A DNA stretch of 64,000 nucleotides from Rhodovulum adriaticum (GTDB taxonomy: Bacteria; Pseudomonadota; Alphaproteobacteria; Rhodobacterales; Rhodobacteraceae). Each line of letters begins with the position of its first letter. The first letter of the stretch is position 1. Location: the NCBI RefSeq assembly GCF_004345735.1, contig NZ_SLXL01000006.1:62001-126000 (forward strand). The letters run 5' to 3'. The notes below the pieces were generated by a model, which was not told the DNA's origin, ran no database searches, and saw only the letters and a list, made by a program, of their open reading frames with translations. Shown piece by piece: positions 52,050-62,959 of this stretch. Made by a program: the position numbers and the translations under genes.

Positions 52050-53258
52050 TCAGTGGCGCAGCGCCTCGATCGGGTCCAGCCGGGCGGCGCGCCGGGCCGG
52101 GAAATAGCCAAAGACCACACCGACCATCGCAGAAAACGCAAAGGCCAGCGCGATGGTTCCCGGATCGGGGGTAAAGGGCACGTTCAGCAGTTGCGCGCCC
52201 ACGGCAGCCAGCCCCAGCCCCAACGCCACGCCCAGCACACCGCCCAGGGCGGACAGAACGATGGCCTCTACCAGGAACTGCAGCAGAACCTGCCCCGCCT
52301 GCGCGCCAACGGCCATGCGGATGCCGATTTCGCGCGTGCGCTCGGTGACCGAGACCAGCATGATGTTCATGATCCCGATGCCGCCGACCAGCAGGCTGAC
52401 AGCCGCCACGGCGGACAACAGCCCCGTCAGTACGGTGTTCACGCTGTTCAGCATCGAGGCCACCTGTTCCATGTTGCGCAGGCTGAAATCGTCCTCTTCG
52501 CCGGGGCCGATGCGGCGCAACTCGCGCATCAGGGCGGTGATGTCGTTGGTCGCGCGGTCCACGGAATAGCCGTCGCGCACCGAGATGTAGATCGTGCCCA
52601 CATCCATACTGCCCGCGATGCGCCGGCCAAAGGTCTTGAACGGGATCAGCACCACGTCGTCCTGATCCGTCCCGAAGGACGAGGCGCCCTTGGCCCCCAG
52701 CACGCCGATCACCTGGCAGGACATCGCGCCCAGGCGGATACGCTCTCCGATCGGATCGGCCTGGCCGAACAGCTCGTCCCGCACGGTTTCGCCCAGCAGG
52801 CAGACGGGCTTGCCCGCGCTTTCCTCAGCCGTTGCAAAGCCCCGGCCCGTGGCGACCGGCCAGTCCGTGGCCAGCAGATAGCGGCTGTCGGTGCCGGTGA
52901 CCCGGGTCTGGTAGTTGGTGTTGCCGAACACCGCCACCAACGACGCGTTGCCCGACGGCGCGGCGGTTTCAACGCTGGCGACCTGATCGATGATCCGGTC
53001 CACATCGCCCAGGTCAAAGGCCCGCTCGGACCCGCCGCCGCTGCCGGGGCCGAACCGCATCTGGCCGGGGCTGAGGATCATCAGATTGGCACCCATCCGC
53101 TCGACATCCGCTGTCACCTGCGCGGTAGAGCCCTTGCCGATGGTGACCATGGCGATGACGGCGGCCACCCCGATCACCACCCCCAGCACCGTCAGGAAAG
53201 ACCGCGTCGGGTTTCGCAGGATCGCCTGCAACGCCAGCTTGAAGGTTTCCCACAGCAT
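52050..53258 (-). CDS. MacB-like ABC transporter permease
   Basis: 402 residues from ATG 53258. TM1 at about 18-40 (NPTRSFLTVLGVVIGVAAVIAM) precedes a large periplasmic MacB_PCD domain at 45-270, and three C-terminal helices start at LTGLLSAVAAVSLLVGGIGIMNIMLVSVTER and end with FGYFPARRAARLDPIEALRH, the FtsX/MacB signature. Such permeases do not translocate through themselves but drive export via MacA and an outer-membrane channel. It overlaps the ATPase gene. Confidence 0.92.
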   Translation of the reverse strand: MLWETFKLALQAILRNPTRSFLTVLGVVIGVAAVIAMVTIGKGSTAQVTADVERMGANLMILSPGQMRFGPGSGGGSERAFDLGDVDRIIDQVASVETAAPSGNASLVAVFGNTNYQTRVTGTDSRYLLATDWPVATGRGFATAEESAGKPVCLLGETVRDELFGQADPIGERIRLGAMSCQVIGVLGAKGASSFGTDQDDVVLIPFKTFGRRIAGSMDVGTIYISVRDGYSVDRATNDITALMRELRRIGPGEEDDFSLRNMEQVASMLNSVNTVLTGLLSAVAAVSLLVGGIGIMNIMLVSVTERTREIGIRMAVGAQAGQVLLQFLVEAIVLSALGGVLGVALGLGLAAVGAQLLNVPFTPDPGTIALAFAFSAMVGVVFGYFPARRAARLDPIEALRH

Positions 53259-53962
53259 CACCCGGCCCCTTTCGTCGGACGGTCGGACTGCACATTGCCA
53301 TCCACCATCCAGATCAGGCGCCGGGCATAGGCGGCCATGTCTTCCTCATGGGTGACCATGACGATGGTCAGCCCGTCATCGCGATTCAGCGCCTGCAACA
53401 GGTCCATGATCTCGACCGAGCGTTTCGTGTCCAGGTTGCCGGTCGGTTCGTCGGCCAGCACCACCTGCGGCCCGGTGGCCAGGGCGCGCGCGATGGCGAC
53501 GCGCTGCTGCTGCCCGCCCGACAATTCCGAAGGGTCGTGATGGGCGCGGTGGGCAAGCCCGACCTTGTCCAGCGCAGCCAAGGCCGCGGCCTCGCGCTCG
53601 GCCCGGCCCAAACCCTTGTAGATCAGGGGCAGTTCGACGTTTTGCAGCGCTGTCGTGCGGGCCAGCAAATTGTAGCCCTGAAAGATGAAACCCAGATAAT
53701 GCCGGCGCAGCAGTGCGCGCTGATCCTGCGTCAGGGCCCCGACCTCGATGCCGTTGAACAGGTAGTGGCCGGATGTCGGCCGATCCAGGCAGCCCATGAC
53801 GTTCATCGCCGTCGACTTGCCCGACCCGCTGGGCCCCATGACGGCGACGAACTCGCCCGGCTCGACGCTCAGGCTGACGCCGTCCAGCGCGCGCACCTCG
53901 GCCGCGCCCGTCCCGTAGACGCGCGCCACGTCGCGAAACTCGATGATGGGCGGTGTGGCCAT
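53258..53962 (-). CDS. MacB-like ABC transporter ATP-binding protein
   Basis: 234 residues, the LolD/MacB type. Walker A GPSGSGKSTAMNVMGCLDRP near 41, Q-loop FQGYNLLARTTALQNVELP, signature LSGGQQQRVAIARALATGP near 140, Walker B VVLADEPTGNLDTKRS, and the His-loop VTHEED near 200. It lies between macA-like and permease genes and overlaps the permease start. Confidence 0.94.
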   Translation of the reverse strand: MATPPIIEFRDVARVYGTGAAEVRALDGVSLSVEPGEFVAVMGPSGSGKSTAMNVMGCLDRPTSGHYLFNGIEVGALTQDQRALLRRHYLGFIFQGYNLLARTTALQNVELPLIYKGLGRAEREAAALAALDKVGLAHRAHHDPSELSGGQQQRVAIARALATGPQVVLADEPTGNLDTKRSVEIMDLLQALNRDDGLTIVMVTHEEDMAAYARRLIWMVDGNVQSDRPTKGAG

Positions 53963-53966
53963 CGGC

Positions 53967-55220
53967 TCAGTCCGCCTCGACCTGGTCGGTAATCACCTTG
54001 TCGCCCGGCGCAAGATCGCCCGCCAGGACCGCGGTCACATCGCCGTCGCTTTCGCCGGTGGTCAAGGGCACCTCGACGGGCTGGCCCGCGCGCAGGATCC
54101 AGACGCTCTTGCCCGTCGCGGCCGCACCGTTCCCGTTGCCGCCGGGCCGGCGCGGCATGACCAGCCCGATCAGCCCGCTACGCTCTTGCTTTTCGGCGTT
54201 CTCGGCGGCGCGGGGCGGGGCATAGCGCAGGGCCGCATTCGGCACCAGAACCGTATCCTGCACCGTAGTCACGACGATATCCGCGGTCGCCGTCATGCCC
54301 GGGCGCAGCGCCATGTCGGAATTGTCCAGCGTCAGGATCGCCTTGTAGGTCACCACGCCCTCGGTCGTTTCGGGGGCAAAGCGAACCTGCGTGATCTGGG
54401 CCGGGAAGGTCCGGTCGTCATACGCCTCGACGGTAAAGCGGGCCTGCTGGCCGACGGCCACCTTGCCGATATCGGCCTCGTCGATATCGGCCTGCAATTC
54501 CATCTGCGTCAGATCCTCGGCCACGGTGAACAGGATCGGCGCCGACAGCGAGGCGGCGACGATCTGCCCCGGATCGGCGTCACGCTCCAGCACGATCCCC
54601 TTGACCGGCGACAGGATGCGGGACTTGTCCAGATCGACATCGACGCTGCGCAGGTTGGCCTGGGCCAGCGCCAGATCGGCGCGCGCCGCCGCCAGTTCGG
54701 CCTCTGCCCGTTCAAAGCCGGCCTGCTGGCCGATAAAGGTCTCTTCGGTCTCGACGCCGCGTTCGACCAGTTTCCGGCCCCGGTCATAGGTCTGGCGCGC
54801 CTCCCGCAGGGAGGCCTCTGCCACCGCGACCTTGGCCTCGGCGGCCAGGACCGAGGCCTGTTGCACCGCCTGTTCAGAGGCAAGCTTGGCGGTGTCCAGC
54901 GTGGCCAGCAACGAGCCCACCTCGACCGCGTCGTTGAAATCGACCTCGACCGTTTCCAGCGTGCCCGACAACTCGCTTGAAATCTCGACCAGCTCGGTCG
55001 GCTCGATCGAGCCGGTGGCAGACACCACCACATCGAAGCCGCCGCGCGTGATCGCCTCGGTGACATAGCGGGGGCTGCGGGCATCTTCGCCACGGGGCCA
55101 CAATGCCCAGGTCGCGGCCAGCGCAGCCACGAGCAGCACGTATTTCACCCAGGCCCAGCGGCCTGCCTTGTGCGAACCCAGCCCCAATGTGCGGCTGATG
55201 TCGTCCCGATCCGTCGGCAT
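53967..55220 (-). CDS. MacA-like periplasmic adaptor (HlyD/membrane fusion protein)
   Basis: 417 residues from ATG 55220 after a GGGGGG ribosome site. One N-terminal membrane helix near 22-40 is followed by a lipoyl-like half (ATGSIEPTELVEISSELSG), a long alpha-helical coiled-coil hairpin at about 110-200, and the second lipoyl half with SPVKGIVLERDADPGQIVAA. Beta-barrel segments (MTATADIVVTTVQDTVLVPNAALRY) follow. Links the ABC pump to an outer-membrane channel. First of a three-gene operon; no TolC gene is nearby. Confidence 0.92.
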   Translation of the reverse strand: MPTDRDDISRTLGLGSHKAGRWAWVKYVLLVAALAATWALWPRGEDARSPRYVTEAITRGGFDVVVSATGSIEPTELVEISSELSGTLETVEVDFNDAVEVGSLLATLDTAKLASEQAVQQASVLAAEAKVAVAEASLREARQTYDRGRKLVERGVETEETFIGQQAGFERAEAELAAARADLALAQANLRSVDVDLDKSRILSPVKGIVLERDADPGQIVAASLSAPILFTVAEDLTQMELQADIDEADIGKVAVGQQARFTVEAYDDRTFPAQITQVRFAPETTEGVVTYKAILTLDNSDMALRPGMTATADIVVTTVQDTVLVPNAALRYAPPRAAENAEKQERSGLIGLVMPRRPGGNGNGAAATGKSVWILRAGQPVEVPLTTGESDGDVTAVLAGDLAPGDKVITDQVEAD

Positions 55221-55327
55221 GGCGCCCCCCGAATAGCCCCGGCAACACGTCCCCTCGTACAGGATGCAAACGGCCCGGCGCGACCGTTCCGTCGCGGCGG
55301 CGGCAACGAATGGCAAAAAAGCCCGGA

Positions 55328-55600
55328 TCAGGACGAGATTTTGGGCGCCCCCTTCGGCCGAGAGGGCTGCGCGGGATCGTTCCACGTCACTTTTAGAGTG
55401 ACCTGGCAGGCGCCGTCCTCACGCTCGGCGGTGATGCGCAGGGTCATCAGGTCGGCGGTTTCCAGGACCATCTCGCGGTCGTCGTCGCCCAGGGTCAAAC
55501 GCCCCTTGCCAAAGCCCTTGGACAAGGCGGTCAGCAAGGTCTTGATCGTCTTGCGATCCTGCAGCGATTCATGCGCGAACCGCGTGGTCTTGTCCGCCAT
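55328..55600 (-). CDS. amphi-Trp domain protein
   Basis: 90 residues matching the amphi-Trp domain family. It opens with TRFAHESLQDRKTIKTLLTALSKG, continues with GRLTLGDDDREMVLETADL, and ends with the conserved amphipathic strand and tryptophan, CQVTLKVTWNDP, near 65-77. Function unknown; the family is one of the founding components of the GAK system (ATP-Grasp, Amphi-Trp, Kinase). It is the last gene of the seven-gene operon and overlaps the metallophosphoesterase by 32 bases. Confidence 0.88.
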   Translation of the reverse strand: MADKTTRFAHESLQDRKTIKTLLTALSKGFGKGRLTLGDDDREMVLETADLMTLRITAEREDGACQVTLKVTWNDPAQPSRPKGAPKISS

Positions 55601-56933
55601 AGCCCCTACCCGTCTGGCTGTCCCGATCCGGCGCGAAATGCTTGGCGCGCGGGTAATCCCTGCTCAGACCGATCACATCTCCGGAGGGAAAGATCAAGGT
55701 GGCCCCGGCCCCGATGCCCTCCAGCCCCTCCAGCCGGCGCGAGGCCCGGTCCAGGGTCACGTCGCCCTCCAGGTGCAACAGGCCCCGCTTGGCCCGGAGC
55801 CGCTGGCCCGCGTGGCTGTTCACGTGACCATGGACGACCATGTGAATGCCCGCGCCCTGCAGCAAGCCAACGCCCTGTTCCGTCAGATCCCAGTCCGAAC
55901 TGCGGTACTTGGTCCGAACCAGGTTGGCCAGCGGGCCGAAGTAGAAGGCCAGCGTCGGATTTTCGGCCCCGGCGCGATAGCGGGCGTTGATGGCCGCGAC
56001 CCCGCCCTTGGCCAACAGCGCGCACATGCTGTCGCAAATGCCGGCATGCACGAACAGCAGCGACCCGCTGCGCGCCACAACGTCCATCTCTTCATAGAAC
56101 CACGCATAGGCGCCGCCCGGCGTGAAGAAGACATCGTGGCATTTCAGCGCCGCAGCCAGCAGCGCGCGGTCGGACAGCCCGGTTCGGCGCAATTCGCGGT
56201 CGAACTTGGCGCGCTTTTCGTTCAGCTTGCGGATTTCCTTGCGGATGGTGCGGGCGGGCAACTGGCCCGACGCCGCCGCGGCAAAGGCATCCGCCCAGTC
56301 CGGCCCCGGCACCAGGCGCGCCCGGCAGGCGGCCTCATCGGGCAGCGCGGCCAGATCGGCGGGGGTGACGAAACGATCATGCACCTCACGCAGGGCGGGC
56401 AGAATCTTGCGCCCCATGCGCACGAACAGGTGGTCTGTTAGGGGCGCGCGGGGGCCGCGCAGCGCGCTGACGGCCAGGCGCAGGCGCAGGTCATGGTTGC
56501 CCGCCAGGATCGTCAGATCGGCGCCCGTGGCGCGCAGCGCGGCCAGCGCGTCCAGCATCGCCAGGTTGCTGGGGCCCTTGTCCAGACTGTCGCCGCCAAG
56601 GATGATACGGGCCGCCCGGCCAAATTCCGTCAGCGCGAAACCGCGCCGGTCCGGATCGCGCCGGATGACGCCCGCAGCCACCAGCGAGCGCAAGAAACCC
56701 TCTGCGTCGGCATGGGTGTCGGACAGGAACACGACCGGGCTGTCCGGCCAGTGCCAGCCGCCATGGCGCCGGGCGTTTTCCAGACAGGCGGCAATCTGCG
56801 GCTGAATCCCAGGATCGCGGGCGCAGGGCCAATCCTCGACATCGCGCGGCAGATCGGACAGCTCGGCCGCGATGTCATAGACCGGGGGCAACAGGGTGGC
56901 GGCAATGTCCTCGGGGCGAACGGCACGATTCAC
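55569..56933 (-). CDS. calcineurin-like metallophosphoesterase
   Basis: 454 residues from GTG 56933. The N-terminal region (1-65) is followed by a full metallophosphoesterase motif set: SDTHAD at 71-76, GGDSLDKG at 113-120, GNHD at 145-148, VHAG near 315 and VHGHVN near 385. A charged helical insert (ARTIRKEIRKLNEKRAKFDREL) separates the halves. It likely dephosphorylates a phosphoprotein or small molecule. Within the cluster it could reverse one of the kinases. The start follows AGAGG; it overlaps the amphi-Trp gene and follows the histidine phosphatase by 29 bases. Confidence 0.85.
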   Translation of the reverse strand: MNRAVRPEDIAATLLPPVYDIAAELSDLPRDVEDWPCARDPGIQPQIAACLENARRHGGWHWPDSPVVFLSDTHADAEGFLRSLVAAGVIRRDPDRRGFALTEFGRAARIILGGDSLDKGPSNLAMLDALAALRATGADLTILAGNHDLRLRLAVSALRGPRAPLTDHLFVRMGRKILPALREVHDRFVTPADLAALPDEAACRARLVPGPDWADAFAAAASGQLPARTIRKEIRKLNEKRAKFDRELRRTGLSDRALLAAALKCHDVFFTPGGAYAWFYEEMDVVARSGSLLFVHAGICDSMCALLAKGGVAAINARYRAGAENPTLAFYFGPLANLVRTKYRSSDWDLTEQGVGLLQGAGIHMVVHGHVNSHAGQRLRAKRGLLHLEGDVTLDRASRRLEGLEGIGAGATLIFPSGDVIGLSRDYPRAKHFAPDRDSQTGRGYGGQDHAVRA

Positions 56934-56962
56934 GGCGGGGCCTCTTGCTGTGGCGCTGCCGG

Positions 56963-57664
56963 TCAATCCTTGGGATCGTCCTTGGGGGGCCTGACCTTCC
57001 ACGAACCGGCAAAGTGGCGCCACTTACCACGCGGGCTGTAACAGAAAAGTAACGGCCGGGCGTGAAACATCGACAACCGGGCAATGTCATCGAAGGCCAG
57101 CAGGCCCAGGTGATGGGCGGCATGGCGAAAGGCGGCGCCATGGCCGACGCAAACCGTCACCTGCCCCGGCCTGCCGTCCCGCCCGACCCTGTGTTGCAGG
57201 TATCGCGCCACGCGCGCGCCCGCCTGCATCAGGCTTTCGGCACCCTCCAGGGGCAGGCGGTAATGGCTGTCGGCCTTCCATCCGGTGGGCGGGGGGGCGT
57301 GGCGGGGATCGGCGGCCAGCACCGCCTCGATCTCTGCCACGGTCAGGTTGGCCGCGCTGCCCAGGCCACGTTCGGCAAGCGACGGGGTTTCGCGGATTTC
57401 GCGAACCGCGTGGTCGCGCGCGCGCAGGGCCTCGGCAATGCCCGCGGCCGTTTGCCAGGCGCGCAACTGGCATGACGAATGGATCACCGGGTCCAGCGTC
57501 AGACCATGCGCCGCGATCAGGTCAGCCAGATCCGCGCCGCATTGGGTGGCCTGTGCCTGGCCCGCGTCGGTCAGCGGATAGGGTTGCCGCGCCGAGGGCG
57601 CGCCGGGCCGCTGGTGATAGGCGCCGTGCCGGACCAGCGCCAGATAGGCGGGCCGTTCATCCAT
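56963..57664 (-). CDS. histidine phosphatase family protein (SixA/PhoE-like)
   Basis: 233 residues. The RHG signature is VRHGAYHQRP with catalytic His13. Further conserved features are SSCQLRAWQTAAGIA (the Arg of the phosphate pocket) near 63-77, Glu98 in SLAERGL, and the second histidine His175 in VGHGAAFRH. It is a cytoplasmic phosphomonoesterase. The start ATG overlaps the stop of the HprK-related kinase gene by eight bases, so the two are made together; it may remove phosphate added by that kinase, which is inference. Confidence 0.88.
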   Translation of the reverse strand: MDERPAYLALVRHGAYHQRPGAPSARQPYPLTDAGQAQATQCGADLADLIAAHGLTLDPVIHSSCQLRAWQTAAGIAEALRARDHAVREIRETPSLAERGLGSAANLTVAEIEAVLAADPRHAPPPTGWKADSHYRLPLEGAESLMQAGARVARYLQHRVGRDGRPGQVTVCVGHGAAFRHAAHHLGLLAFDDIARLSMFHARPLLFCYSPRGKWRHFAGSWKVRPPKDDPKD

Positions 57665-58733
57665 CGAACAGCCGCCGCCCGTGGTCGGCCAGCACGTCGA
57701 AATCGATCTTGCCCGACACCTCGCGCACCCGCAGTCCGGCCAACGCGGACAGGAAGGGCGCGGGATCGGGGCGCGCGCCGTTGGGCTCAAATCGGCCGCC
57801 GGGGTGCTGGTAAAAGGGGCCGGGGCTTTTCATGATCGCGCCCAGCAGGTCGGGGCGGCGGGACAGGTCTGCATCCGCCAGGCGGGTCGGTTCGGCGCTG
57901 TCGTGGCGCCAGTTCAGCACCCAGAAGTCCGTCAGCGGCGCGGCGTATTGGACCCGCCCCGGCCCATAGACCTGGCCGATCATCAGGTCGTGCTTTTCCT
58001 CCAGCGCCCACAGCTCGCCCGGCGGCAACGCCGCCAGTTCCGCCCGCCGTTGCGGCGACAGCATCGGCGCCAACCGGGGGTTTCCCAGGATCGTGCCGGG
58101 GTTGATGCGGGGATGCTTGGGGATGCCCAACGCCTGCACCGGATCGCCGCCGCGCACCAGCAGCCGGTCGTTGGACACAAAGCGCTTGCCCGCGATGTCC
58201 ATCATCCGCAGGACGGTCGTGGATTTGCCCCCGCCCGACAGCCCAGATATGGCCAGCGTCCGGCGCCCGTCGGTTACCGCCGCCGCGTGGCATAACTGCC
58301 AACCCTCGCGCAGCCCGGCATTCAGAACCTGCGTGTTGATGAAGTTGATGACGGTGCTGACATTTTCCGCCAAGGGGCCAAAGGCCAACACCGCATCGGG
58401 CGATTGCAGGAAGGTGACCCCGCTGCGCACCTTTTTCACCAGCCGGGCATCGTCCAGATCGACCACGGCATCCTTGCGCCCGGTCTTGCCCGGCTCGCGC
58501 AACCATGGGGTCCAGTCCGGTTCGGGGTCCAGCCGCTGGCCGGGCAGCAGGCGAATGACGATGTCGCCGGGGGTGTCCGACAATGCCTCGTCGAAATAGG
58601 CGACCAGTTCCCCGCGCAACGGGTCCGGGCACAGAACGCGCAGCGACACCGGGCCAACCGTCAGGTGGAACGGGTCTGCGGCCTCGGCCGGCGCCAGGTC
58701 CAGCCGCGCGATCACGTCCGCTGCGCATCTCAT
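57657..58733 (-). CDS. HprK-related kinase B (GAK system)
   Basis: 358 residues from ATG 58733. An HprK-like core is clear: CHAAAV at 148-153, P-loop GLSGGGKST at 164-172, FVSNDRLLV at 185-193 in the Walker B-like place, and ALGIPKHPRINPGTIL at 201-216. HPr kinases phosphorylate a serine of HPr, but no HPr is here, and this subfamily's target is unknown. It overlaps the ATP-grasp gene by four bases and the histidine phosphatase by eight. Confidence 0.88.
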   Translation of the reverse strand: MRCAADVIARLDLAPAEAADPFHLTVGPVSLRVLCPDPLRGELVAYFDEALSDTPGDIVIRLLPGQRLDPEPDWTPWLREPGKTGRKDAVVDLDDARLVKKVRSGVTFLQSPDAVLAFGPLAENVSTVINFINTQVLNAGLREGWQLCHAAAVTDGRRTLAISGLSGGGKSTTVLRMMDIAGKRFVSNDRLLVRGGDPVQALGIPKHPRINPGTILGNPRLAPMLSPQRRAELAALPPGELWALEEKHDLMIGQVYGPGRVQYAAPLTDFWVLNWRHDSAEPTRLADADLSRRPDLLGAIMKSPGPFYQHPGGRFEPNGARPDPAPFLSALAGLRVREVSGKIDFDVLADHGRRLFDG

Positions 58734-59611
58734 GCCGTCACCTCGGCCAGCACATGATCGGCCATCAACGCCATCGCATCCACCCCGCACCCCTGCAGCG
58801 CGCCGGAATACCCGCCGAAGGCCGACACCTCGAACACGATCGGGCCGTCCGGGGTCAGGGCGATATCGACAGTGGTAAAGCTAAGGCCGAAAGGCGCCTG
58901 CGCCCGACGGCCCAGATCGATCAGGTCGGGCGCGGGGTCGAAGGGGGCGTATTTGCCGCCTGCGTGGATCGTGGTGTTCCAACTGCCCGCCTGCCCCACG
59001 CGGGCATAGGTGCACAGATAGTCGCCGTTCAGGAACACCATGCCCAGGTCCTGGCCGGACAGGTCCACCCGTTGCTGGATGTACATCACCGGATTTTCCG
59101 CCCGAAAGGCCGCGATCCGCGCGGCGGTATCCGCCGCCCCGTGATCCAGCAGCACCATCCCCCGTGCCTTGGTCGAAAAGAGCGGCTTGAACACCGCCGA
59201 GCCAAAGCGCGCCAGGGTCTCGGCGGCGGCGGTTTCGTCCTCGGTGATTACGGTGGGCGGCATCGGGATATCCGCGCCCGCCAGTGTCACCGTGCAGGCC
59301 AGCCGGTCCATCAGGCGCAGAACCGCCTCGGGGCGGCTGAAGATACGCACACCGCGGGCCTCGGCCACGCGCAGCATTTCCAGCCGGTCCAGCGCGTCTG
59401 GGCTATAGGTTTCGGCGATCTTCTTCAGGACCAGCCCGTCCAGCGTGCACAGGTCCACGCCCTGGTACATCAGCCGCCCCGCGGTCAGGTCCAGCGTGAC
59501 CCGCCCCATGTCGATGACCAGCCGATAGCCTGTCCGCGCCTCCAGCGCGTCGGCCAGCGCCTCGGTCGACCATTTTCCGGGGGTGCCAATCACCCCGATC
59601 CGTTTACCCAT
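58730..59611 (-). CDS. GAK system ATP-grasp enzyme
   Basis: 293 residues. MGKRIGVIGTPGKWSTEAL is an N-terminal pre-ATP-grasp domain. The ATP-grasp fold shows a Lys-containing strand GSAVFKPLFSTKARGMVLL near 140-158, QQRVDLSGQDLGMVFLNG near 180-197, and the metal-binding FEVSAFGGYSGALQG near 265. ATP-grasp enzymes join a carboxylate to an amine or thiol with ATP; the substrate is unknown. It overlaps its neighbours by four and eight bases in the operon. Confidence 0.88.
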   Translation of the reverse strand: MGKRIGVIGTPGKWSTEALADALEARTGYRLVIDMGRVTLDLTAGRLMYQGVDLCTLDGLVLKKIAETYSPDALDRLEMLRVAEARGVRIFSRPEAVLRLMDRLACTVTLAGADIPMPPTVITEDETAAAETLARFGSAVFKPLFSTKARGMVLLDHGAADTAARIAAFRAENPVMYIQQRVDLSGQDLGMVFLNGDYLCTYARVGQAGSWNTTIHAGGKYAPFDPAPDLIDLGRRAQAPFGLSFTTVDIALTPDGPIVFEVSAFGGYSGALQGCGVDAMALMADHVLAEVTA

Positions 59612-61235
59612 CGAACAGCACCCTCATCGGCAACTTGAAGCGTGTCTCGCCACCCTCGGGGACGGCCAGCAGGCGTTCCAGGATGTACCGGGACCGCAGA
59701 AACATGCGGCTGGCGTGGCCCGGATCCAGAACGAAGCGGGTGGAACTGGCAAAGGATCGCGCAAGACCCAGCGCCAGACGGAATTCAAACCCCGTATCCC
59801 CTTGGCTGCGCGCGAATTTCGCCGCCATCGCGTGCATCGCGCAGGCAACGCCCGCGATCCGCGCGCGCGTCGCGGCATCCAGCACCTGCAAGCGATAGTT
59901 CGACACCATGAAGACAGACACATCCTGCACGTAGTCCATATAGCAGGATCGGTGCAGGTCGATCAGCCGGATCTTTTTCTCGTGCGGGTCGTAGATCACG
60001 TTGTCCAGGTTGAAATCCCCGTGGATCCAAACCGACAGCGGCGCTGGCAGCGCCGCCTCTCGCCGGGCGGCGGCGGCAACCAGCGCGTCGAAGCTTTCGA
60101 TCCCGGCCCCCTGTATCCGCTGCGGCCCGACCGCAAAGGACGGGTGCAGCCGGTAGACATCGGGCATCCGGCGCGCAAGCTGCTCCATCGCCTTCATCTC
60201 GGCGGGGGTGTCGGCCCTTGTGCGCTGCCAGATGTCGCGCAGGGTCTTGTGCAACGCCTTCTGCGCGGCGCCCAGTTCGGAATCCGTGCCGCCCAGAACG
60301 ATATCCTCGAAGGTCTCGCCGTTCAGATGCTCGATCAGCAGCGCGGCAGAGTCGCCGCGCTTTTCGTAGGACAGGATCTTGGGCGCCAGGCCGGGATAGA
60401 CCGAGTTCCAGCTTTTCACCCCGACGCGTTCCTGTTTGACCTTCTTGCGGGCGCCATCCTTGAACACGGCGTCGACCGTGCCGCCCTTGCCGCCCGCCAT
60501 GCGCACCCCCGAGATCGCACTGCCCGAGCGGGTTTCGGCAAGCGGCTTGAGGGTGATATCCGCGTCGTCCTCGGCCATGCCTGACAAGACGCTGCGCAGG
60601 GTGAAATAGCGTTCGAACTGGACGGTCTGGCCGATATTGATCGACAAGAGCGCCTCGCCGATCCCGCGCAGGGCCTCGCCCATACGGTGCACGGCGCTGG
60701 CGGTCAGCAGGGCGTGGGACAGATCCTCGGTATGCCGGGTCTCGCGCATGTCGCGGGTATAGGTCCGAAACATCCGGTCATAGAAGGCATCCAGCCTGGC
60801 CGTGTCGCCGATGCCCGCCGCCATGTGGCTGTCGCGGCTGCGCAGCGCATCGGGCACGCGGGCCACGGTGTCGCGAACCAGCTTGACCGGGGTCAGGTAG
60901 GCGTCGGCGCGCAACAGCTTGTTACGCTCGACATCCTCGGCGTGGCGCACCGCACGCCGCGCCAACCGGGCGGTCGTTTCCAGGTTGCGCGCGATCGTGT
61001 CGACCCCTTTCAGGTGCAGGTCGCGTGCCGCGCCGCCCTTGCCGCGCTGCATACCCGTCAGGCAGCCCTTGCGCACCCGTTCCGACAGGTTCTGCGCATA
61101 GCCCGCCCGCTGCACCAGGCGCTGCGCGGTTTCGGTCTGCGGGTCGCGGAAATACACCCCGAGCAGGGCCAACTGCCCATCCAGTTCGGCCAGCAGGAAG
61201 GACAGGTTTTCCTCTACCGCCTCAGGCAGTTTCAC
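59604..61235 (-). CDS. PhoU-like/aminoglycoside-phosphotransferase-like fusion kinase
   Basis: 543 residues from GTG 61235. The first ~220 are helical and PhoU-like, with two helical bundles full of Arg and Glu (TARLARRAVRHAEDVERNKL; HTEDLSHALLTASAVHRMGE). Residues about 230-520 are an APH-type kinase: VYPGLAPKILSYEK near 280, catalytic loop IHGDFNLDNVIYD at 404-416 with Asp407 and Asn412, and IRLIDLHRS at 422-430 with Asp426 for Mg-ATP. It might phosphorylate a small molecule or protein in response to phosphate status. It overlaps the NUDIX gene by 14 bases. Confidence 0.82.
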   Translation of the reverse strand: MKLPEAVEENLSFLLAELDGQLALLGVYFRDPQTETAQRLVQRAGYAQNLSERVRKGCLTGMQRGKGGAARDLHLKGVDTIARNLETTARLARRAVRHAEDVERNKLLRADAYLTPVKLVRDTVARVPDALRSRDSHMAAGIGDTARLDAFYDRMFRTYTRDMRETRHTEDLSHALLTASAVHRMGEALRGIGEALLSINIGQTVQFERYFTLRSVLSGMAEDDADITLKPLAETRSGSAISGVRMAGGKGGTVDAVFKDGARKKVKQERVGVKSWNSVYPGLAPKILSYEKRGDSAALLIEHLNGETFEDIVLGGTDSELGAAQKALHKTLRDIWQRTRADTPAEMKAMEQLARRMPDVYRLHPSFAVGPQRIQGAGIESFDALVAAAARREAALPAPLSVWIHGDFNLDNVIYDPHEKKIRLIDLHRSCYMDYVQDVSVFMVSNYRLQVLDAATRARIAGVACAMHAMAAKFARSQGDTGFEFRLALGLARSFASSTRFVLDPGHASRMFLRSRYILERLLAVPEGGETRFKLPMRVLFDG

Positions 61236-61680
61236 TGCGCAACGCCCCCAGATAGACCGGCGCGTCCCCTCGCCCCAGCGCCAGGTCGTAACGCGGGACA
61301 AAGGCCGGGCCATCGGTTTCAGGATCGACCCAGCGCACCTGAACCTGACGCTTGTCGGGGCGGGCGCCCATCTGCGGGCGATAGCTATCGGGTACGGTGC
61401 AGGCGAACAGGATTTCGATCAGTTGCCGGTCTTCCGCATCCGGGCGGATGCGGGTCACGTCGGCCACATGCAGCACGTCGCCGATGGTGGGCGCGATGCC
61501 GATCTCTTCCTCGCATTCCCGGATCAGGCAGGCCTGCATGGTCTCGCCGGGTTCCTGGCGGCCACCGGGCAAGGTCAGATAGCGCCGCCCGTCGGGCCGC
61601 TGCTTGACCTGAATCAGGAACTTGCCATCCCGGCGGATGACGGCACGCACCGTCGGGCGTATCGGCAGCGGGGCAATCAT
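61222..61680 (-). CDS. NUDIX hydrolase
   Basis: 152 residues with a complete NUDIX box, GGRQEPGETMQACLIRECEEEIG near 39-61, following the G-x5-E-x7-REVEE-x-G pattern. The fold hydrolyses nucleoside diphosphates linked to another moiety, pointing to a nucleotide-sugar or dinucleotide in this pathway. AAGG precedes the ATG by five bases. First gene of the seven-gene operon, so the operon promoter must lie in the 131-base divergent gap to 61812. Confidence 0.88.
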   Translation of the reverse strand: MIAPLPIRPTVRAVIRRDGKFLIQVKQRPDGRRYLTLPGGRQEPGETMQACLIRECEEEIGIAPTIGDVLHVADVTRIRPDAEDRQLIEILFACTVPDSYRPQMGARPDKRQVQVRWVDPETDGPAFVPRYDLALGRGDAPVYLGALRSETA

Positions 61681-61811
61681 GGGGCCTTATTGCCCAAGGC
61701 CCGGCCGAATCCAAGGGGAACCATGCCCCGGCGCCGCCCCAGACGGCCCCAATTTTCTTGCCAACCGCCCTGCCCCACCGCACACTTCCCCCGACAACCG
61801 GGAGGTGCCCC
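61681..61811. promoter_or_regulatory. divergent promoter region of the GAK-type operon and the DUF5765 gene
   Basis: 131 bases between divergent starts. It contains GGCGCCGCCCC and TTTTCTTGCC stretches but no perfect operator palindrome that I can see. It must hold the promoters of both units. Confidence 0.45.
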
Positions 61812-62528
61812 ATGTGTTGGTCCGCCGAAGTTTCCGTCGCCATGGTCGGCATAGGGGCCGCCGCAACCGCCGCCACCGCCTGGCGGGGCGAGGCGCGGGG
61901 GATCTGGGTCACGCTGGGCTTCTTCACCTTCATGGAGGCATTGCAGGCCGCAGGCTACGCCGTGGTCGATGACTGCACCAACCCGGCGAACAGGGCGGTC
62001 ACCCTGCTGTCCTACCTGCATATCGCGGTGCAGCCCTTTTTCATCAACGCGTTCGCGATGGCGATCGTGGGCCATACCGTGCCCGCCCGCACCCGGCGCG
62101 CGGTCTGGGCGGTCTGCGGGGCGGCGACGGCCTGGATGCTGGCGCAACTGATCCCGCTGGAGGCCTTGGGCACCTGCCGCCCCGGTTCGGTCCTGTGCGG
62201 CGAGCGGCTGTGCACCATCACTGGCACATGGCATATCGGGTGGGAGGTGCCCCTGAACGCGCTGACCGGCTATATCCCCAGCCTGATGGGCCAGACGCTG
62301 CAATTTCCCAGCTACATCCTGGCGGCCTTTGTCATGCCGCTGTTCTATGGCGCCTGGCGTTTCGTGCTGTTTCACGCGGCGGTCGGGCCGATCCTGGCCA
62401 ACCTGCTGACCGACAACCCCAACGAGATGCCGGCGATCTGGTGCCTGTTCTCCGTCGCGATCATCCTGGTGGGGATGAGCCCGGCCATACGCCGCCCGCT
62501 GGCCGGGCCGCGGGGCCGGACCGCCTAG
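61812..62528 (+). CDS. DUF5765 multipass membrane protein
   Basis: 238 residues from ATG 61812 after GGAGGTG. Starts MCWSAEVSVAMVGIGAAATA and has six or seven hydrophobic helices, with a cysteine-rich periplasmic-type loop (GTCRPGSVLCGERLCTITG) near 117-135. DUF5765 proteins are common in Rhodobacterales and uncharacterised. It is divergent from the GAK-type operon and convergent, by a four-base overlap of stop regions, with DUF1489. Confidence 0.8.
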   Translation: MCWSAEVSVAMVGIGAAATAATAWRGEARGIWVTLGFFTFMEALQAAGYAVVDDCTNPANRAVTLLSYLHIAVQPFFINAFAMAIVGHTVPARTRRAVWAVCGAATAWMLAQLIPLEALGTCRPGSVLCGERLCTITGTWHIGWEVPLNALTGYIPSLMGQTLQFPSYILAAFVMPLFYGAWRFVLFHAAVGPILANLLTDNPNEMPAIWCLFSVAIILVGMSPAIRRPLAGPRGRTA

Positions 62529-62959
62529 CGCACCCCGATTTCGGCCAGCGCGGCCATCAGGGCGGGGGGCAGCTCTTCCTCTTCCTGGCGGCCCTGGGGC
62601 AGGTCGCGGGGGGCATCCTGGGCCGACAGGTAGCGCCACCCCTGAAAGGGACGGCGCGGCACCGCCTCTGTCCGCATGATGGCGGGGTCTAGCACGATGC
62701 CGCAGCGCGCGATGCCGTCACTGCCGGTCACCTGGTCCAGCCGCACGATACGCTGGCGGGCCAGGATCACGCCCTTGAACACCCAGTAAAGCGAACCGCC
62801 GTTCAGCAATTCATCGGCACGCTTGGGCCACATCCGGGTGACGTGCCGGGGCAGGCCATCCGGCCCCTTGGCGCGGGCGCTGTCCTGCCAGCGGGCCAGA
62901 TCCTCTACCGCTTCGGCGCCGACGCACAGCTTTACCAGATTGACATGGCGCGCGGCCAT
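62525..62959 (-). CDS. DUF1489 family protein
   Basis: 144 residues. The family features are HVNLVKLCVGAEAVEDLARWQ at the N-terminus, HVTRMWPKRADELLNGGSLYWVFKGVI near 39-65, and RRPFQGWRYLSAQDAPRDL near 102-120. It is a small cytoplasmic alphaproteobacterial protein of unknown function. It lies divergent from the ribonucleotide reductase gene. Confidence 0.85.
   Translation of the reverse strand: MAARHVNLVKLCVGAEAVEDLARWQDSARAKGPDGLPRHVTRMWPKRADELLNGGSLYWVFKGVILARQRIVRLDQVTGSDGIARCGIVLDPAIMRTEAVPRRPFQGWRYLSAQDAPRDLPQGRQEEEELPPALMAALAEIGVR

Follow-up and report, generated by a model that had tools for sequence, protein, structure and literature searches.

What does a compact operon that unites two kinases, an ATP-grasp ligase and several phosphatases make, or take apart? 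The question is raised by positions 55328-61680 of a 64,000-nucleotide stretch of the Rhodovulum adriaticum genome (contig NZ_SLXL01000006.1; the whole stretch is hereafter the window), in which seven open reading frames (ORFs) all lie on the minus strand. An earlier examination of the letters without database searches, referred to here as the sequence-only reading, had placed these genes in the GAK system and knew of no substrate or product for it. Our analysis shows that the locus is a GAK system without its CofD-like partner and belongs to an already named gene set. We propose, with a rough probability of 0.45, that it encodes a phosphate-responsive pathway making and recycling an intracellular small molecule that is phosphorylated and probably amino-acylated; we infer the chemistry. 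The genes, from first to last, are as follows.

61222..61680, minus strand: NUDIX hydrolase, first gene of the operon, 152 amino acids (aa), ATG start; Pfam NUDIX 61.0 bits
59604..61235, minus strand: PhoU-APH kinase, 543 aa from GTG 61235 (alternative ATG 61313); N-terminal PhoU domain (residues 1-203) and C-terminal APH/methylthioribose-kinase-like small-molecule kinase with HGDFNLDN and IDLHRS; Pfam APH 51.0 bits
58730..59611, minus strand: GAK ATP-grasp ligase, 293 aa, ATG start; TIGR04356 442.6 bits (cut-off 300)
57657..58733, minus strand: HprK-related kinase B, 358 aa from ATG 58733; P-loop SGGGKST and NDR motif; TIGR04355 282.7 bits (cut-off 200)
56963..57664, minus strand: histidine phosphatase (HISP), branch 1, 233 aa, ATG start; His_Phos_1 64.4 bits
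55569..56891, minus strand: metallophosphoesterase (MPE), start uncertain (GTG 57023, 57002 or 56933, or TTG 56966 or 56891)
55328..55600, minus strand: amphi-Trp protein, last gene, 90 aa, ATG start; TIGR04354 60.7 bits (cut-off 31), Pfam 29.2 bits

All three GAK models were matched above their cut-offs, confirming the assignment that the sequence-only reading had made, and the families that it had named (two kinases, a ligase and phosphatases) were matched in the window and in relatives. Two Pfam scores fall just under their thresholds in the window, PhoU at 22.5 bits (cut-off 23.5) and Metallophos at 21.3 bits (cut-off 21.5; 21.7 with a shorter MPE start); among 26 aligned rows, of which the window is one, Metallophos matches all 26 MPE proteins and PhoU 22 of the kinases (E<=0.001). 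Apart from the HISP/MPE junction, neighbouring genes overlap by 14, 8, 4, 8 and 32 bases with the starts preferred among relatives. At that junction only two of 73 relatives show an overlap and the median gap is 44 (script-chosen starts), so that the strictly overlapping series described earlier holds for strand and for five junctions, the remaining one being probably a short gap. Neither a study behind the GAK names nor a substrate was found in print in the literature searched, most of the subscription literature being outside its reach.

Conservation was followed in the best 80 of 493 confirmed relative loci with flanks, picked by ATP-grasp similarity, giving 81 loci with the window; their titles name Pseudomonadota or unclassified marine bacteria, with one exception (L024). 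Full-length genes were present in the order of constancy ATP-grasp (81, as the query), kinase B (81), PhoU-APH (79), amphi-Trp (79), HISP (73), MPE (73) and NUDIX (58), the last being absent or short in 23 loci; six genes, all except NUDIX, are complete in 70 loci and all seven in 49, with some absences (L064, L078 and L096) representing contig ends. The order of full-length genes is identical in 80 of the 81 loci and the remaining locus, L083, is rearranged yet still clustered, so the survey of conserved neighbours found the genes together in other genomes rather than dispersed. The exceptional L024 contig bears the title Enemella evansiae, the name of an actinobacterium; its GAK operon is of rhodobacterial type, with an ATP-grasp protein 78% identical to that of the window, and misnaming or contamination of the record is probable.

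The same linkage was seen beyond these loci. Of 200 Pseudomonadota genomes sampled, 12 contain PhoU-APH and 14 contain MPE (E<=1e-20), and 15 gave strong kinase B matches; every genome with PhoU-APH or MPE also has the GAK kinase B, and the 12 with PhoU-APH also have the ATP-grasp gene. These two families therefore occur, in the sampled genomes, only where GAK operon genes are present. In two genomes (G140 and G184) a single contig carries MPE and, at its end, kinase B, and neither ATP-grasp nor PhoU-APH was matched; at the end of a contig, a third (G033) has a partial ATP-grasp gene together with kinase B, with no PhoU-APH or MPE match, and six more gave weak kinase B matches of 25-30 bits. 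The distribution is patchy: the GAK ATP-grasp gene was found in 14 of 398 genomes at 1e-60 (13 exceeding the cut-off) and in two of 16 genomes of the genus, including the window's own. Five plasmid records carry a close ATP-grasp relative, and the annotation of the two inspected shows the window's order for the last six genes.

Joint conservation does not amount to the single stoichiometric pathway that the gene overlaps had been taken to imply, because the two phosphatases can be lost together and the NUDIX gene varies as described above. HISP and MPE are both missing or reduced to remnants in seven of the 81 loci (L036, L037, L043, L053, L056, L057 and L058), and in none of the 81 loci is one lost with its partner retained (the L078 sequence ends before reaching either). 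Six of the seven genomes (L057 was left out) were searched for MPE and no full-length copy was found elsewhere; three gave no match at E<=1e-5 and three gave C-terminal remnants, one of them also with a weak partial match. On a tree of three proteins (79 rows), the paired loss needs at least four changes, and more than four if loss is irreversible, since L045 keeps both genes. Where retained, HISP has R12, H13, R68, E98 and H175 invariant in 26 aligned rows. As they are lost together, HISP and MPE look like a separable branch of the pathway. Two of the pair-loss loci, L057 and L058, also have GDR in place of NDR in kinase B, the P-loop and the NDR motif being present together in the other 79 loci.

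A link to phosphate is suggested first by the kinase. The sequence-only reading had called it a PhoU-like/APH kinase, which proved correct and incomplete: the predicted model contains a whole PhoU fold, joined to a kinase part that aligns with small-molecule kinases. The second indication lies upstream of the operon. The Escherichia coli Pho-box motif is described in PMC4415409 as a CTGTCAT heptamer repeated at 11 bases, and 250-300 upstream bases were scored, out of 14, for two such repeats. Twelve of 80 upstream regions (window included) score at least 11, against a mean of 1.4 and a maximum of 4 in dinucleotide shuffles, and 31 score at least 10 (shuffles: mean 10.7, maximum 18). After removal of near copies, 67 regions (window included) gave 24 at >=10 and 11 at >=11 on the operon strand, compared with 4 and 0 on the other strand; other repeat spacings from 8 to 15 gave at most 16 and 4, respectively. 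None of 399 permuted heptamers attains 11 regions at >=11, the best reaching 10 in a shifted register. Regions 500, 1000 and 2000 bases further upstream gave 1/64, 1/64 and 0/63 at >=11, and GC-matched segments of the same loci gave a mean of 0.35 and a maximum of 2 (20 draws) vs 12/78. Among 12 genomes outside the locus set, the operon strand scores 13 in G142 and 12 in G158, and in both a third, partial repeat comes after the box; in G014 the operon strand reaches 10 and the opposite strand 11, and the remaining nine score 10 or less. A third repeat within the 80 regions was found in only two weak cases. Judged from these repeats, the operon appears to be switched on under phosphate scarcity in some relatives, phosphate control being supported for a minority of relatives and not for the window locus.

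Two partner genes extend the set. The sequence-only reading had named three GAK families, all matched here; the GAK models also include a CofD-like protein (TIGR04357; 467.7 and 556.1 bits for two examples). In 45 of 80 loci, including L031 with only a 54-position piece, the CofD-like gene is encoded upstream, on the opposite strand. Of the other 35 loci, 34 were searched genome-wide (L064 was left out), of which 27 have the gene elsewhere (26 above cut-off) and seven have none. The window's genome (G000) gave no TIGR04357 match genome-wide, and a congener (G405) carries the gene beside its NUDIX gene. Since seven of these 34 other GAK genomes lack TIGR04357, we treat the CofD-like protein as accessory rather than defining. 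In the 200-genome sample it was found at 1e-30 in five genomes, four of which have the operon; in the fifth, which is without it (G006, locus L180), no operon PhoU-APH, MPE or kinase B was found.

The second partner, missing from the earlier account as was the Pho-box signal, is a SixA-NUDIX fusion found in 34 of the 81 loci, 20 times in the operon after kinase B and 14 times elsewhere nearby, where 12 copies have the opposite orientation (the gene is split between frames in L061 and L082 and cut in L078). Among the matches listed, full-length fusions occur in at least six of the 200 genomes, each with operon genes, and the window's genome shows a match to the NUDIX half only and no full-length fusion. 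The nearest structures are SixA (3e-16) and, for the NUDIX half, the diphosphoinositol polyphosphate phosphohydrolase DIPP1 (5.6e-13). In a 14-row alignment the RHG motif of SixA is intact in eight gammaproteobacterial rows and altered in six alphaproteobacterial rows (L043, L038, L036, L045, L074 and L046), whose SixA half is without it; this suggests that the alphaproteobacterial fusion may be a pseudo-phosphatase with a live NUDIX half.

A hint at the nature of the product comes from the ligase. After its own model, the window protein scores best with that of MptN, a glutamate ligase for small molecules (124.7 bits; curated cut-off 350), followed by RimK (rimK_fam 85.7 bits; cut-off 143.4) and LysX models, and a profile of 14 relatives finds solved chains of RimK and LysX types nearest, RimK 5zct first at 6.6e-19. 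A small-molecule product is proposed because the ligase is MptN-like and the kinase contains the APH part. Elsewhere in the window's genome, a 488-residue open frame (L002; G000:C12:7845-8696) contains a second RimK-like ATP-grasp domain, which gives 92.5 bits with the GAK model, under its cut-off.

It is possible to order these enzymes into a scheme. The PhoU domain would gate the APH-type kinase, which would phosphorylate a hydroxyl of a small metabolite, and the RimK/MptN-like ATP-grasp enzyme would activate a carboxylate as an acyl-phosphate and join an amino acid to it, glutamate being most likely, a guess that follows from the ligase family. The HprK-related kinase B may add or control a further phosphate; HISP, MPE and NUDIX would then hydrolyse phosphoester and phosphoanhydride bonds, returning phosphate, and amphi-Trp could serve as an accessory binding subunit. 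We infer the substrate, the order of steps, the gating, the role of amphi-Trp and any phosphate control of the window locus. The scheme draws on the small-molecule type of the ligase and kinase relatives, the whole PhoU domain, the Pho-box repeats in relatives, the co-occurrence of the genes and the CofD-like and DIPP-like NUDIX partners. Of its foundations, the gene families, their conserved catalytic motifs, the conserved linkage and the enrichment of Pho boxes in relatives are observed, and the PhoU fold is that of a predicted model. Its value is that the PhoU domain, the Pho-box signal of relatives, the DIPP-like partner and the paired phosphatase loss turn an unknown substrate into testable statements.

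Several observations weigh against this scheme. The Asn of the RimK EVN motif, a metal-site residue in RimK, is Ser in 80 of the 81 loci (one locus is without the motif), so the chemistry of the ligase may differ, and RimK and LysX act on proteins, which makes a protein substrate possible for the GAK ligase too. The GAK CofD-like protein is closer to YvcK, a UDP-sugar-binding regulator, than to CofD. When neighbours were clustered and the CofD-like and SixA-NUDIX genes and a family of ORFs antisense to CofD were set aside, no family was found in more than 22 of the 81 loci, so that the operon has no constant link to any further biosynthetic gene or transporter. As to phosphate, the window's own upstream region has no Pho box (best score 8 of 14), ten of the 12 outside genomes have no box of at least 11 on the operon strand, and at >=10 one of the 399 permuted heptamers, register-shifted, equals the Pho box (25 vs 24 regions). 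The Pho box was not recovered by a de novo motif search, in which the best motif was GCCGCCGCtGAAGAACAG; the exact core of this motif occurs in 14 loci, always within the divergent CofD-like ORF, and the de novo search therefore says little.

A more specific form of the same idea, which we regard as doubtful, is a phosphate-starvation pathway for an undescribed conjugate serving as cofactor, signal or phosphate store. Its phosphorylated core, which would contain a phosphodiester link wherever the CofD-like protein occurs, would be extended with amino acids by the RimK/MptN-like ligase with its altered metal site, under the control of the PhoU-gated kinase. CofD itself forms a phosphodiester in F420 synthesis.

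An unlikely alternative, kept open by the YvcK likeness of the CofD-like protein together with the HprK-like kinase, is a protein-phosphorylation switch resembling HprK/Crh with YvcK (GlmR), in which kinase B would phosphorylate amphi-Trp or another protein, MPE and HISP would reverse this, the RimK-like enzyme would add residues at the C-terminus of a protein and a nucleotide sugar would be sensed by the YvcK/CofD-like partner. The nearest solved structures of the CofD-like protein are UPF0052 proteins (3.1e-31), members of the YvcK family, and it scores 102-112 bits with the NCBIfam YvcK model, under the cut-off of 196. Hpr_kinase_C (PF07475) matches four of 26 kinase B rows, but not the window protein, and the kinase B profile reaches HPr kinase 1jb1 only at E 0.078, behind ABC transporter P-loops at 1.5e-4. 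The APH half, moreover, resembles small-molecule kinases.

Amphi-Trp also fits this switch poorly. Of 80 proteins, 78 retain its F-x-H-x-S pattern, but the otherwise conserved Ser is Ala in two further GAK loci (L099 and L102), leaving no invariant acceptor, and its predicted model is weak (pLDDT 69.8) and gave no Foldseek match at E<=0.001. Two candidate roles were rejected, that of an HPr-like acceptor, as the Ser is not universal, and that of a LysW-type carrier. Such carriers have a conserved C-terminal Glu, found here in two of 79 proteins (Ser in 31, Gly in 16, Lys in 12 and Arg in 10). Three stand-alone amphi-Trp proteins (L109, L111 and L113) are without the F-x-H-x-S motif; these are three of seven non-GAK amphi-Trp loci, the other four (L112, L114, L115 and L116) being unmatched by the GAK profile and left out.

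Less probable again is turnover of a phosphoanhydride signal or store, such as polyphosphate, a nucleoside polyphosphate or an inositol-pyrophosphate-like compound. The DIPP-like half of the SixA-NUDIX fusion and the PhoU domain are consistent with it, as is the MPE profile (26 rows), which reaches the diadenosine tetraphosphatase ApaH at 7.8e-4, but the fusion is represented in the window's genome by the NUDIX-half match only and the RimK-like ligase is left unexplained. No polyphosphate gene was recognised by eye near separate SixA and NUDIX genes among the ORFs of five of 13 regions, with both marked only in L157 and L160, too thin a basis to count. An anti-phage or other conflict system, to which the patchy and partly plasmid-borne distribution might point, is very improbable, given that PADLOC matches only the NUDIX protein with one candidate model (PDC-S07, 42.4 bits), that a pattern scan found no relative in viral contigs and that the promoter signal of relatives indicates phosphate.

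Some genes that flank the operon in the window were also noted. Directly upstream, where the congener G405 has its GAK CofD-like gene, the window encodes DUF5765 and DUF1489 proteins (61758-62525, plus strand; 62525-62959, minus strand). Downstream lie MacAB-like efflux genes (52050-55385, minus strand), whose adaptor matches RND_mfp above and MacA below cut-off; the efflux ATPase and permease are named from reading the ORFs alone.

How, then, does the proposed phosphate-responsive small-molecule pathway compare with known systems? YvcI of the Bacillus subtilis yvcI-yvcJ-glmR-yvcL-crh operon is a NUDIX protein, a likeness to the GAK operon, and Crh is a target of HprK. To our knowledge that operon has no ATP-grasp, PhoU, APH or phosphatase gene. 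It further resembles the GAK set in encoding a YvcK-like protein and a small protein together, alongside the nucleotide-binding YvcJ, as described in PMC6171935. The GAK small protein, amphi-Trp, is by contrast only putatively HPr-like. Unlike the PhoU phosphate regulator, the GAK PhoU domain is fused to a kinase. The GAK ligase shares its family with RimK, MptN and LysX by sequence and differs from them in falling far below their curated cut-offs and in carrying EVS for EVN. Closest of all is the GAK system of NCBIfam (TIGR04354-TIGR04357) itself: the window's genome is without the CofD-like TIGR04357 protein, though its congener has it, and the window matches the other three models and keeps its last six genes in the order annotated on the two plasmids.

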